Shown here in pieces: positions 31 through 37,446 of a stretch of 37,446 bases of DNA (within the stretch, counting starts at the first letter, position 1; each line of letters opens with the position of its first letter). The stretch lies in contig JAJDBU010000040.1 in the NCBI GenBank assembly GCA_029261195.1, positions 1 to 37,446 on the forward strand. The letters are read 5' to 3'. The position numbers were made by a program, and so were the translations under genes. The DNA is from Nitrospirota bacterium. Its GTDB lineage: Bacteria > Nitrospirota > Nitrospiria > SBBL01 > JAADHI01. The notes below the pieces were generated by a model that had not been told where the DNA came from, did not search any database, and saw only the letters and a program-made list of their open reading frames with translations.

Positions 31-97
31 GGGGCGAACCTATGTTTTCGCCCTTTTTTGGATCGGACTAAAGTGGGCTAAAACATAGGTACGCCCC
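31..97. repeat. Imperfect inverted repeat (REP/MITE-like)
   Basis: Two 23-base arms, 31-53 and 75-97, are reverse complements of each other with two mismatches, separated by a 21-base loop. The arms start and end with GGGGCG/CGCCCC. The right part (90-100, TACGCCCCTAC) also occurs in the palindrome at 37348-37387, so both may belong to one dispersed family. It abuts the outermost cheR ATG at 102. No open reading frame is inside, so it is non-autonomous. Confidence 0.7.
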
Positions 98-101
98 TAC
101 A

Positions 102-977
102 ATGCGCAATGCCTACGAGGCACACAATTTGCCAAACGCGATCGCTGCTATGACCATCACGGACCAGGAATTTGATCAGATCCGCTCCCTCGTTTATGAC
201 CGTTTCGGGATTACCCTCAATGACGGCAAACGGACACTCGTGATTGGTCGTTTGCAAAAACTACTCAAGACGGAGGGGATTAGGACCTTCAAGGATTATT
301 ACGACAGTATCCTTACAGATACCACGGGTCGGGTTTTGTCTAAATTCGTCAATCGCATGACGACGAACTACACTTTTTTTAACCGGGAAAAAGAACATTT
401 TGAATTCTTTTCTAAGACAGCGCTCCCCAAAGTAGTTACACAATTAGAACAAAAAAAAGAAAAAAAATTAAGAGTCTGGTGTGCGGCCTGTTCAACCGGA
501 GAAGAACCCTACATGCTGGCCATGCTCATGCAGGATTTTTTCGGCCACAGATATAAAGAGTGGGACGCAGGATTGCTTGCAACGGATATTTCTTCCCGCG
601 CAATTTCAGTCGCAAAGGCTGGTATTTATGCCGACGAGCGGGTTGAAAAAATCCCTGGACATCTGAGTCGTCGCTACCTGAAACGGATACGCGGTGGAGA
701 CTGGGCTGTTTCTGAAGAGATCAAGCGCGAGGTCTGCTTCCGCCGCTTTAACCTGATGAATACCACTTTTCCTTTTAAGGAAGGTTTTGACATCATCTTT
801 TGCCGAAATGTCATGATCTATTTTGATAAAGCAACACGCGAGTCCCTCATTAAACGCTTTTATCAGTTTACAAAACCGGGGGGCTATCTCTTTATCGGGC
901 ATTCGGAGACGATGGACCGAAAACAGCAACTTTATAAAAACATCATACCGGCGGTTTTTAGAAGGGAGACAGATTGA
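102..977 (+). CDS. cheR: CheR, chemotaxis protein methyltransferase
   Basis: S-adenosylmethionine-dependent methyltransferase that methylates glutamates of chemoreceptors in the cytoplasm to set adaptation. The N-terminal helical CheR domain (DQEFDQIRSLVYDRFGI) is followed by the SAM-binding Rossmann domain with WCAACSTGEEPYMLAM, the CRNVMIYFD segment and GGYLFIGHSE near the end. The 291-residue length fits the family (about 270-290). The outermost ATG (102) has no visible Shine-Dalgarno and directly follows the inverted repeat at 31-97. ATG 150 (MTITDQEF) matches the usual family N-terminus better and may be the true start. It is the first gene of the che cluster visible here and reads directly into cheB. 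The family assignment is certain; the start is not. Confidence 0.95.
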   Translation: MRNAYEAHNLPNAIAAMTITDQEFDQIRSLVYDRFGITLNDGKRTLVIGRLQKLLKTEGIRTFKDYYDSILTDTTGRVLSKFVNRMTTNYTFFNREKEHFEFFSKTALPKVVTQLEQKKEKKLRVWCAACSTGEEPYMLAMLMQDFFGHRYKEWDAGLLATDISSRAISVAKAGIYADERVEKIPGHLSRRYLKRIRGGDWAVSEEIKREVCFRRFNLMNTTFPFKEGFDIIFCRNVMIYFDKATRESLIKRFYQFTKPGGYLFIGHSETMDRKQQLYKNIIPAVFRRETD

Positions 978-7661: not shown

Positions 7662-8261
7662 TTATCCTGTCTTGTACCCTTCCTCAACTAATTCGCAGAT
7701 GATATGGCCGATTAATATATGGGATTCCTGCACTCGCGCAGTTATTTTTGATGGGACACAAAGGCAGTCGGTTAATGTAGCAAGTAAGCCACCGGTTTCT
7801 CCCGTAAAACAAACACTTTTCAGGCCGATTTCCTTGGCCTTGTGAATGGCTCGAATGATGTTCCTGGAATTCCCGCTGGTTGAGATGCCGATAAAAAGAT
7901 CGTTGCGATTTCCAAGTGCAGCCAGCTCTCGTGAAAAAATCTCATCGAATGAATAGTCGTTACTGACGGCGGTGAGGATGGAGCTGTTGGCGCCTAAGGC
8001 AATTGAGGCCAGCGGCTGTCTTTCGATTTGGAAGCGGGCAACAAACTCTGCGGCCAAATGGATGCTGTCCGCAAAACTTCCCCCGTTCCCGGCAAAGATG
8101 ATTTTCCCTCCATCGTGCAGGCTTGCAGCGGCTGCCTCTGCAATTTCTTCAATCTTTGCGATTAGGTCTTTCCGTTTGAGCAAGGCCTGTTTTACGGCGA
8201 TGCTTTCTTCAATCCGCTTTGCGATAGTTTCTTGCCGCTTTGTGATGGTCTCCTGGTTCAT
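7662..8261 (-). CDS. gmhA: Phosphoheptose isomerase (GmhA-type SIS protein)
   Basis: SIS-domain isomerase converting sedoheptulose 7-phosphate to D-glycero-D-manno-heptose 7-phosphate, the first step of heptose supply for the LPS core. Signatures of the family are GNGGSFADSIHLAAEFV, LGANSSILTAVSNDYSFDE, the phosphosugar-binding GISTSGNS and the C-terminal ESHILIGHIICELVE. The 199-residue length is typical. AAAGGA lies about ten bases upstream of the ATG. The other heptose genes (hldE, gmhB) are not adjacent. It is transcribed alone from a divergent region shared with cobA-hemD and ends at the bidirectional terminator. A related SIS enzyme such as DiaA is less likely, because the active-site motifs are GmhA-like. 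Confidence 0.9.
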   Translation of the reverse strand: MNQETITKRQETIAKRIEESIAVKQALLKRKDLIAKIEEIAEAAAASLHDGGKIIFAGNGGSFADSIHLAAEFVARFQIERQPLASIALGANSSILTAVSNDYSFDEIFSRELAALGNRNDLFIGISTSGNSRNIIRAIHKAKEIGLKSVCFTGETGGLLATLTDCLCVPSKITARVQESHILIGHIICELVEEGYKTG

Positions 8262-35400: not shown

Positions 35401-36093
35401 TTATTTCTGATTTCCCCACCACCAAATCACCCTGAAGATACGGATATTCTCCTTTTTTTCAATGAAGACAACAGGATGCCCACGGTTTTCCGGGTGAAGA
35501 ATCCAACAGTCCTGATCGGGGGAAAGCCAACGGGTGATCAAACCGTCTTTCGGGTGCCATGCCGCAACAATCAGTCCTTTGAGCGCGCCGACGTCGTTTG
35601 TCCATTCTCGAATGGCGACAATGTCTTCCTTTTTGAAGATCGGCTCCATTGCATTATCCCTGACCTGCATCAGGTAGACCTCTTTACCGCTGATAATGGA
35701 CGGCACCCAAAGTGACTCTGCAATATCCTGATTCTGAATCTCTTTGGGAGGGCCGCTGATGACATGATGATGCAGCAGGGGACATAATTCATAGTTTTTT
35801 TTAGTCTGAACACCTTCGTCTAGCTTCTCCGAATCAAGTGTTTTTTGGGGGGGCGCTCCTGCGCACCGGCAGCTGTTTCCGGTTAAGATCCATTCGACAT
35901 CGGTTTCACCCGCTTTGGCAATCTTTAATAGAGACAAACCATCAGGATAAGCCCCATGCTCCCACGCCGAAACGGCCTCTTGTGTCACGCCGAATCGTTT
36001 TCCGAAACCGGTTTGGTTTAAGCCAAGACGTTTTCTGAGCGTTCTGATCCTCAGCCCGATTGACTTGTCACATTTTTTAAGGATACGCATCAT
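35401..36093 (-). CDS. XRE-family regulator with S24-like domain, autoprotease lost
   Basis: A 230-residue regulator. The N-terminal helix-turn-helix (about residues 12-65, FGVTQEAVSAWEHGAYPDG) is XRE/Cro-type. The C-terminal half resembles LexA/CI S24 autoproteases (VRDNAMEPIFKKEDIVAIR). The catalytic serine of DSM is A148, the lysine position reads arginine in DGLITRWL, and the Ala-Gly cleavage site appears as S113-G114, so self-cleavage looks lost. The linker has CRC (75, 77), C104 and HHH (108-110), a possible metal or redox site. No ribosome binding site precedes ATG 36093; translation may be leaderless. It is divergent from the PAS-LuxR gene. Confidence 0.82.
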   Translation of the reverse strand: MMRILKKCDKSIGLRIRTLRKRLGLNQTGFGKRFGVTQEAVSAWEHGAYPDGLSLLKIAKAGETDVEWILTGNSCRCAGAPPQKTLDSEKLDEGVQTKKNYELCPLLHHHVISGPPKEIQNQDIAESLWVPSIISGKEVYLMQVRDNAMEPIFKKEDIVAIREWTNDVGALKGLIVAAWHPKDGLITRWLSPDQDCWILHPENRGHPVVFIEKKENIRIFRVIWWWGNQK

Positions 36094-36112
36094 ATAAGCA
36101 TAATTTATATTA

Positions 36113-36142
36113 TTGACATTTCAGCTTGATTTTTAATATCTT
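36113..36142 (+). promoter_or_regulatory. Candidate promoter for PAS-LuxR gene
   Basis: Perfect TTGACA (36113-36118) with TATCTT after 18 bases (36137-36142), or a TAATAT after 15. The start would be near 36149, with a leader of about 95 bases that contains two palindromes before the gene. Confidence 0.45.
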
Positions 36143-36244: not shown

Positions 36245-36982
36245 ATGGCGCACTCACAAAAGATCCAGGCGGAAAACACCCCGAATGCTAAGTTGAGACT
36301 CACGCTCCCTGAGATCGTTAAATTAATCTCCGGAACGGCTGATGGCATGTTTGTGGTTGATTCCAAGGGAAAAGTCCTCGCCTGGAATTCTTCCGCCCGG
36401 AATATCCTCGGGTACAGTGCGGAAGAGGTGATCGGCTTACCATGCCACGAGATAATTTCCGGGTGTGATCCATCCGGAAATTTCTTTTGTTTTCCAAAAT
36501 GCGCTGTCATGACGATGACCAAAGAAGACCAGTTAGTCCAAAACTACGACACCCAGGTGACAACGAAAGCAAATGGAAAGATTTGGATAAATACCAGCAT
36601 TCTTTTCGTGCAGGACAAGGCCAAAGGTGAATCGCTTATTGTCCACCTTTTTCGAGAAATTGCACCACCGAATCAAGTAAAAGGCGCTGTCGTAGAGATC
36701 GCTTCAAGTCCGAACCGCCGGACCTCCTTCCTGATTCCAGAGGAGGAGCCTTCCTCTTTAGGCCCTCATTCCGTGAAACGTCCCGTATTATCCCAACGCG
36801 AAACAGAGGTGCTTGCCCTTGTGAGCCGCTGCCTTGTTGCAAAAGAAATCGCCTCCAAACTCGAAATCAGCACGGATACGGCGCGAACCCACATTCAGCA
36901 CATCCTTAAGAAACTCCATGCCCACAGCAAACTTGAGGCCGTGATGACCGCAGCGAAACTCGGTCTCTTCTCCCGTCCTTAA
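36245..36982 (+). CDS. PAS-domain LuxR-type transcription regulator with Cys cluster
   Basis: A 245-residue protein. A PAS domain (about residues 20-135, ISGTADGMFVVDSKGKVLAWN) is followed by a linker and a LuxR/FixJ-type helix-turn-helix (about 180-240, LSQRETEVLALVSRC, AKEIASKLEISTDTARTHIQ and HILKKLHAHSKLEAVM). There is no receiver domain, so the signal should enter through PAS. Four cysteines, C67, C74, C82 and C86, cluster in CHEIISGCDPSGNFFCFPKC; such a set could hold a metal or sense redox state. AAGGACGGG sits just before the ATG. It is divergent from the XRE/S24-like regulator. The target genes are unknown. Confidence 0.88.
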   Translation: MAHSQKIQAENTPNAKLRLTLPEIVKLISGTADGMFVVDSKGKVLAWNSSARNILGYSAEEVIGLPCHEIISGCDPSGNFFCFPKCAVMTMTKEDQLVQNYDTQVTTKANGKIWINTSILFVQDKAKGESLIVHLFREIAPPNQVKGAVVEIASSPNRRTSFLIPEEEPSSLGPHSVKRPVLSQRETEVLALVSRCLVAKEIASKLEISTDTARTHIQHILKKLHAHSKLEAVMTAAKLGLFSRP

Positions 36983-37347
36983 GAACGCAAGGAATCTCTT
37001 CTACAATACGACCCTTTTTGTTTTATTTATTTATCTCTGGGTCCTGTAGATTCTTACCGCGTTTTAAATAACATAACTAAAGTCCCTTCCTCAATCCGCA
37101 AAATGTGTTATGGGCCTCACGCAAATAAACCTCTTCTAATCACACATTTACAGTATAGATACTTTGTTACTTATAAGGCATAGTATGAATATAATGAATT
37201 TGTATTATAAACAGGTCTTATGTTTATATTTATAAGTAAATATTATATTTTATTCCTCGCGGGTTTCTTCACAGCTAAGGTGAAACGACCAAGCTTTAGG
37301 TGAAAATCTCTCAGTGAAAAAGACATATCATCTCTCCCTTCCTTCTT
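36983..37347. other. AT-rich non-coding stretch
   Basis: No gene is supported. A perfect ten-base inverted repeat (37167-37176 and 37230-37239) flanks an AT-rich segment that contains a TATAAT (37190-37195) without a good -35. GCTAAGGTGAAA and TTTAGGTGAAAA form a loose direct repeat near 37275-37305. Immediately after the LuxR gene an imperfect GAATCT/AGATTC pairing may act as a weak terminator. Confidence 0.4.
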
Positions 37348-37387
37348 TTGACGGTAGGGGCGTATTGCAATACGCCCCTACCGTCAA
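37348..37387. repeat. Perfect 40-base palindrome
   Basis: Twenty-base arms with no loop (37348-37367 and 37368-37387) centre on TTGCAA. The core TACGCCCCTAC is shared with the right arm of the element at 31-97. It is followed directly by the ATTCCCCC array. It is probably the same class of short dispersed palindromic element. Confidence 0.8.
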
Positions 37388-37389
37388 GC

Positions 37390-37446
37390 ATTCCCCCATT
37401 CCCCCATTCCCCCATTCCCCCATTCCCCCATTCCCCCATTCCCCCA
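37390..37446. repeat. ATTCCCCC tandem repeat, runs off the window
   Basis: Seven exact copies of the 8-base unit ATTCCCCC (37390-37445) plus the first base of an eighth. The array continues past the window or stops at a contig end. The total number of copies cannot be seen here. Confidence 0.9.

Follow-up and report, generated by a model that had tools for sequence, protein, structure and literature searches.

How is a repressor with the fold of self-cleaving S24 proteins relieved, and what would it control, when the residues needed for self-cleavage have been replaced? The question is raised by an XRE/S24-like repressor gene carried on a 37,446-nucleotide stretch of DNA from a Nitrospirota bacterium (contig JAJDBU010000040.1 of assembly GCA_029261195.1; the whole stretch is referred to as the window). 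Judging from sequence comparisons, its product is probably a chromosomal, non-cleaving repressor of the CI/LexA fold, which would regulate its own gene and a divergent PAS-LuxR gene through one shared palindrome and would be relieved without self-proteolysis.

Fold and catalytic positions of the repressor

The features of the repressor gene are as follows.

35401..36093, minus strand: XRE/S24-like repressor gene, 230 residues, an open reading frame (ORF) with Pfam HTH_3 and Peptidase_S24 matches
35887..36048, minus strand: DNA-binding domain HTH_3 (residues 16-69), with the P22 c2 repressor as its nearest relative of known structure
35404..35793, minus strand: C-terminal domain of LexA/CI fold, residues 101-230, from the AlphaFold model and its structural matches
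35752..35757, minus strand: S113-G114 replacing the cleaved Ala-Gly, by several alignments; the codons read Ser-Gly
35650..35652, minus strand: A148 replacing the catalytic Ser, by alignments; the codon reads Ala
35530..35532, minus strand: R188 replacing the catalytic Lys, by alignments; the codon reads Arg

The helix-turn-helix (HTH) and the S24/LexA fold of autoproteolytic repressors are both present in the window protein. Pfam places HTH_3 at residues 16-69 (36.5 bits) and Peptidase_S24 at residues 117-220 (34.9 bits, cut-off 23.3), and the phage repressor profile phrog_4 matches over 9-228; PADLOC gave weak HTH-level matches and nothing more. The AlphaFold model, made from an alignment of 24 rows (12 of 80 and 8 of 12 viral-contig loci, the window protein and three relatives, with L192 omitted for a stop in frame), has a mean predicted local distance difference test (pLDDT) score of 86.4, with block means of 87-97 in the C-terminal domain; an earlier model from 4 rows was poor (pLDDT 54.4) and was set aside. 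In the 24-row model the HTH matches P22 c2 (3jxb_D; Z 11.7, 38% identity), and the C-terminal domain, presumed to be the dimerisation domain, matches the LexA chains 3k2z_B (Z 15.0, root-mean-square deviation 2.0, 119 residues aligned) and 1jhh_A (Z 14.2).

The initial annotation held that the protein had lost self-cleavage, with Ser-Gly in place of the cleavage-site Ala-Gly, A148 in place of the catalytic serine and arginine at the lysine position. All three substitutions are confirmed: in three alignments with intact S24 proteins, S113-G114, A148 and R188 lie opposite Ala-Gly, Ser and Lys. When compared with E. coli LexA (G85, S119 and K156, taken from PDB titles), G114 and A148 are both numbered 29 above G85 and S119, which fits the aligned range of 102..228 on 74..198. 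Neither the alignments with S24 repressors nor the structural match to LexA restores a Ser-Lys pair, and an alternative alignment that keeps one was rejected. The window protein has neither the catalytic Ser, nor the catalytic Lys, nor the Ala-Gly site of autoproteolytic S24 proteins; it does have a LexA fold with a residue other than Lys at the position of the catalytic base, as in 186 CI. Having Ala and Arg, it should have no residual self-cleavage activity. The genome's own intact LexA (L097, with VAAGAP, GDSM and TLKKF) coexists with it.

Judged from the family alignment, the catalytic loss is a trait of the whole aligned subfamily, and not of the window protein alone. When 269 genomes of the class were searched with a profile, nine detections matched into the C-terminal half at E < 1e-18, eight of which were aligned (a fragment from G016, covering 45 profile positions, was omitted, and one aligned relative is cut by a contig edge). 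The Lys position is Arg in 8/8 members; an S, N or Q precedes the invariant Gly in all eight, and Ala-Gly occurs in none; the Ser position is Ala in six and Ser in two (L003 and L004). The loss of self-cleavage is therefore well supported, and is older than the window protein. Three distant homologues from the phylum (L094-L096, among 6 matches in 395 genomes) all keep Ala-Gly, Ser and Lys, and one of them, L096, also has the WWWG end of the window protein. In a tree computed without L007, which is almost identical to L006, the window protein groups with L003 and L004 (support 100/99) and the Manganitrophaceae members stand separate (99/98); the order of the outgroups is unsure, because the long branches L096 and L075 join. 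Since the tree splits the window protein, L003 and L004 from Manganitrophaceae, and Lys is absent everywhere, the Ser was probably lost twice, with Lys gone from all members. Work on LexA K156R reportedly implies that the Ser-Arg pair of L003 and L004 might keep slow activity.

Arg at the Lys position is found in nine other S24-like regulators of Nitrospiria. Seven of them form a separate S24-like group in other families (L050, L055 and L073, judged by alignment, and L060, L072, L074 and L077, by eye), which keeps the Ser (NSM/DSM), has no Ala-Gly and carries the Arg in an LRQLK-type context; L070 and L071 have the Arg too, by alignment.

Searches of genome contigs for relatives of the window protein found none with a single sequence and four with the alignment as query, and a search with a Photobacterium protein found none. 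Phage and plasmid matches covering at least 80% of the query (17/113 and 6/36 records) have at most 26% identity. No description of this S24-like family was found in the literature, a search that left subscription papers mostly outside and so is no proof of absence.

The palindrome shared with a divergent PAS-LuxR gene

The repressor gene is divergent from a PAS-LuxR gene in three of the six loci compared, those of the window, G026 (locus L065) and G030 (locus L066), which belong to three genera. The partners in G026 and G030 are 44-50% identical to that of the window, and each is followed directly 3' by a hemerythrin-domain gene. At three Manganitrophaceae loci (L067-L069) no PAS-LuxR partner was found beside the S24-like gene. 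The relevant features of the window are these.

36245..36982, plus strand: PAS-LuxR (GerE) regulator gene, 245 residues, divergent from the repressor gene; Pfam PAS_9 and GerE
36092..36110, no strand: putative operator ATATAAGCATAATTTATAT, which overlaps the repressor's first codon and is separated by 2 bp from the TTGACA pointing to the PAS-LuxR gene; G026 and G030 share it at the corresponding place
36113..36142, plus strand: promoter-like TTGACA-18-TATCTT towards the PAS-LuxR gene; the scan gave 3 promoter-like sites in the stretch against 0.9 expected
37206..37222, plus strand: weak second operator-like site TATAAACAGGTCTTATG, with 2 mismatches; the window has about as many such sites as chance would give (8/100 shuffles had as many or more)

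Among perfect inverted repeats with 6-bp arms and a spacer of up to 10, ATATAA-N7-TTATAT is the only one common to the three intergenic regions, and none of 3000 dinucleotide-preserving shuffles shared any such repeat. Outside the palindrome, the intergenic DNA of the three loci aligns no better than chance (z 0.1, 1.4 and 1.3). With gene starts taken from a mechanical ORF caller, the palindrome precedes, by 2 to 6 bp at all three loci, the TTGACA that points to the PAS-LuxR gene, and it either overlaps the repressor's first codon or is 0 to 7 bp away from it. The stretch of the recognition helix, QEAVS, is identical in the three proteins with the palindrome; the four Manganitrophaceae members whose sequences include this stretch have RSFLS there.

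Further copies lie upstream of the hemerythrin genes. When one mismatch to the relaxed pattern TATAARCNNNGYTTATA was allowed, both sites in the G026 genome and five of the seven in G030 were at this locus; G013, the one Manganitrophaceae genome searched, had none. The second G026 site (L065 8169-8185) is 86 bp before the hemerythrin gene. The five G030 sites fall within 2.3 kb and include a tandem pair before the hemerythrin gene (L066 8102-8118 and 8123-8139), the nearer one 37 bp from the start used; a further two (L066 5893-5930) are in a duplicated promoter copy ahead of a PAS-GGDEF-EAL gene. Comparison of L066 5893-5930 with 8102-8139 suggests that the hemerythrin promoter, the two operator-like sites and the first codons were duplicated. 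At up to three mismatches L066 has 7 sites (as many in 0/200 shuffles), L065 has 7 (9/200) and the window has 5 (8/100). The intergenic regions of L065 and L066 contain a TTGACA as well. In promoter scans, which report consensus matches only, L065 has TTGACA-17-TATAGT facing the PAS-LuxR gene, and L066 has TAAACA-16-TATAAT facing the hemerythrin gene, where it overlaps the operator-like sites, an arrangement that suits repression of that gene.

From the computed domains and fold, the catalytic loss across the family, the gene pair, the shared palindrome and its extra copies before hemerythrin genes, we infer how the repressor might work. It would dimerise through its S24-like domain and bind, as a dimer, a predicted operator in the intergenic region that separates it from the divergent PAS-LuxR gene, the 17-19 bp palindrome TATAARC-N3-GYTTATA. 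Binding would limit synthesis of the repressor and control the PAS-LuxR gene, negatively or positively, and in two relatives it would control the hemerythrin gene too. Because the repressor is without the ability to cut itself, relief would come by another route: the inducing agent may be a partner protein, a ligand, a separate protease or the PAS-LuxR product competing for the site.

Several observations weigh against this proposal or limit it. The strict pattern ATATAARCNNNNNTTATAT occurs at one place per whole genome in the window genome, G026 and G030, namely this locus, and its backwards control matches once across the three genomes, but both patterns were derived from the three intergenic sites, so that matches there arise by construction. 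The relaxed pattern has 19 sites in 8 genomes against 24 for its backwards control; because relaxed sites are no commoner than that control, the case for the palindrome rests on position, not number. The window genome has one of its three relaxed sites at the locus and two elsewhere, and two of the five G030 sites belong to the duplicated segment. When the surroundings of one-mismatch sites on G000:C58, G026:C19 and G030:C94 were read, no common theme emerged. Facing the PAS-LuxR gene of L066 the scan gave no promoter match over threshold, TTGACA being present, and facing the hemerythrin gene of L065 it found none. Since the palindrome abuts TTGACA, the protein could just as well activate the PAS-LuxR gene as repress it. 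The pair of repressor and PAS-LuxR genes occurs in three genomes only, and this search found no full-length member of the family in G001-G007, seven other genomes of the window genome's family. Finally, the window contig stops 464 bp past the PAS-LuxR gene, and the link to hemerythrin was read in G026 and G030 alone.

Alternative explanations

The residues on which a different switch could depend, and a second set in the PAS-LuxR protein, are the following.

35863..35871, minus strand: C75-R76-C77, where the linker begins; not conserved
35764..35772, minus strand: H108-H110, not conserved
36443..36502, plus strand: C67-x14-C82-x3-C86 motif in the PAS domain of the PAS-LuxR protein, present at 11/12 homologous loci

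The initial annotation had placed CRC, C104 and HHH together in the hinge and proposed that metal or redox binding there took over from proteolysis as the switch. The residues exist: the window protein has five Cys, against 0-1 in the relatives (one of them truncated), and only 69 of 20000 composition shuffles give HHH. Their clustering need not go beyond chance, as 2173/20000 shuffles reach 6 Cys plus His in a 36-residue stretch and 1721/20000 give C-x-C. HHH belongs to the well-predicted C-terminal domain, and CRC sits at the margin of the poorly predicted linker (mean pLDDT 63 for block 71-80, below 50 for residues 80-96). Among the 8 aligned members C75, C77 and C104 occur in the window protein only: none of the seven relatives has CRC, and the C104 position is F, V or I in them. 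The HHH positions are Y/D/A, then D, then Q/H/R/L, and His 110 is the sole one of the six Cys/His residues met in a relative (L004, 1/7). The conserved Cys/His ligands expected of metal- or redox-sensing regulators are thus absent from the repressor family, an outcome that the initial annotation had itself named as refuting its proposal; we rejected the switch, which now seems barely credible. The Cys motif of the PAS-LuxR protein is a more plausible metal or redox site. Its sole exception among the 12 loci (L082-L093) is the G026 partner, so two of the three paired partners have it.

Could the palindrome belong to the PAS-LuxR protein instead of the XRE protein? LuxR/GerE proteins also bind inverted repeats, and the site adjoins the TTGACA facing the PAS-LuxR gene; yet contigs bearing further PAS-LuxR homologues (G030:C70 and C186, G026:C35) have no strict or one-mismatch site, and it is the XRE recognition helix that is common to the three site-bearing proteins and different in the others. 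We consider this assignment unlikely. Cleavage in trans by another protease would account for the Gly of the cleavage site being invariant in 8/8 members, but that Gly may be structural, and no protease was recognised by reading among the genes common to the compared loci, of which Pfam covered only some, so that this route is very unlikely. Decay of a prophage immunity repressor with no current role appears highly improbable. The phrog_4 match, and the Ser retained in L003 and L004 and lost in the window protein, would agree with it; on the other side, frames are open in 8 genomes from three families (one cut by the contig edge), 25 columns are invariant across the 8 members, the gene pair and palindrome are kept though the flanks have diverged, the genes around it in the window have housekeeping functions (lnt and prfB as judged by reading, ThiE by Pfam), and scans of viral contigs with the family alignment and with L096 found no relative.

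The non-cleaving repressor could also be given a wider role. Hemerythrin and the PAS Cys motif, as neighbours, suggest an oxygen or redox theme for the locus. Beyond the hemerythrin gene, G030 has a GGDEF-EAL gene and an ODP-family beta-lactamase gene, ODP being an oxygen-binding di-iron protein. A LexA/CI repressor stripped of its protease might then have been rewired into an oxygen or redox circuit, where it would repress the PAS-LuxR and hemerythrin genes through one palindrome and be relieved by the product of one of them, not by RecA; this extension we regard as speculative and doubtful. G000 has two hemerythrin matches (C29 and C63).

Other elements were noted. A small HTH-only protein, L002 (G000:C76:2017-2295), is encoded immediately 5' of what, on reading, resembles a branched-chain aminotransferase gene, and a protein resembling it by eye adjoins the S24-like gene in Manganitrophaceae loci. 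The perfect palindrome GTAGGGGCGTATTGCAATACGCCCCTAC at 37354-37381, present once in the window genome, was found in 6/21 genomes, with 10, 16 and 7 copies in three Manganitrophaceae (f5) genomes, while two more genomes from the order have 1-2; it looks like a repetitive extragenic palindromic (REP)-type element. A tandem array of CATTCCCC occupies 37389-37446 (7.2 copies), and the contig ends within it.

Comparison with known repressors

The locus appears to represent a new subfamily of non-cleaving S24-like repressors, which in three genomes has a PAS-LuxR partner and a predicted operator. It offers a clear example of a self-cleaving repressor domain that outlived its chemistry, presumably for dimerisation, in every aligned member of the subfamily, and it illustrates that SOS-type cleavage should not be read from a Peptidase_S24 annotation. 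The predicted operator and targets are open to direct testing.

LexA, lambda CI and P22 c2 resemble the window protein in combining an HTH, P22 c2-like in the window protein, with the S24 fold; they differ from it in that its Ala-Gly, Ser and Lys are all replaced. The closest precedent is CI of phage 186 (PDB 2FJR; 7JVT is a lambda-186 hybrid), which has Arg at the Lys position as the window protein does. Both structures are among the Foldseek matches of the repressor model, with LexA chains ranking higher. In 186 CI part of the nucleophile peptide is missing as well, which sets it apart from the window protein. The antirepressor of 186 CI is named Tum, and no counterpart to it was found for the window protein. 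186 CI has a LexA fold and no canonical active site, and Arg152 occupies its base position (PMC12984324). An antirepressor releases this phage protein, and the Gifsy prophage repressors, GfoR and relatives, are not cleaved on induction but are released when small antirepressor proteins bind them (PMC3121763); compared with the Gifsy repressors, the window protein has a full S24-like domain. A contrary case is IrvR of Streptococcus mutans, which is described as RecA-independent yet cleaved (PMC7101444).

Adjacent XRE and LuxR-type genes are also known from linear plasmid-like phages of Aeromonas, where the two regulators act together and control a counter-oriented gene (PMC10432266). There the regulators form an operon, the LuxR protein needs C4-homoserine lactone (C4-HSL) and the target is a small ORF. 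The window pair is similar in its adjacency, yet it is divergent, with a PAS domain on the LuxR-type protein and an S24-like domain on the XRE protein. Among the 15 Pfam families listed none is an autoinducer-binding family; the LuxR-type protein has PAS and GerE instead.
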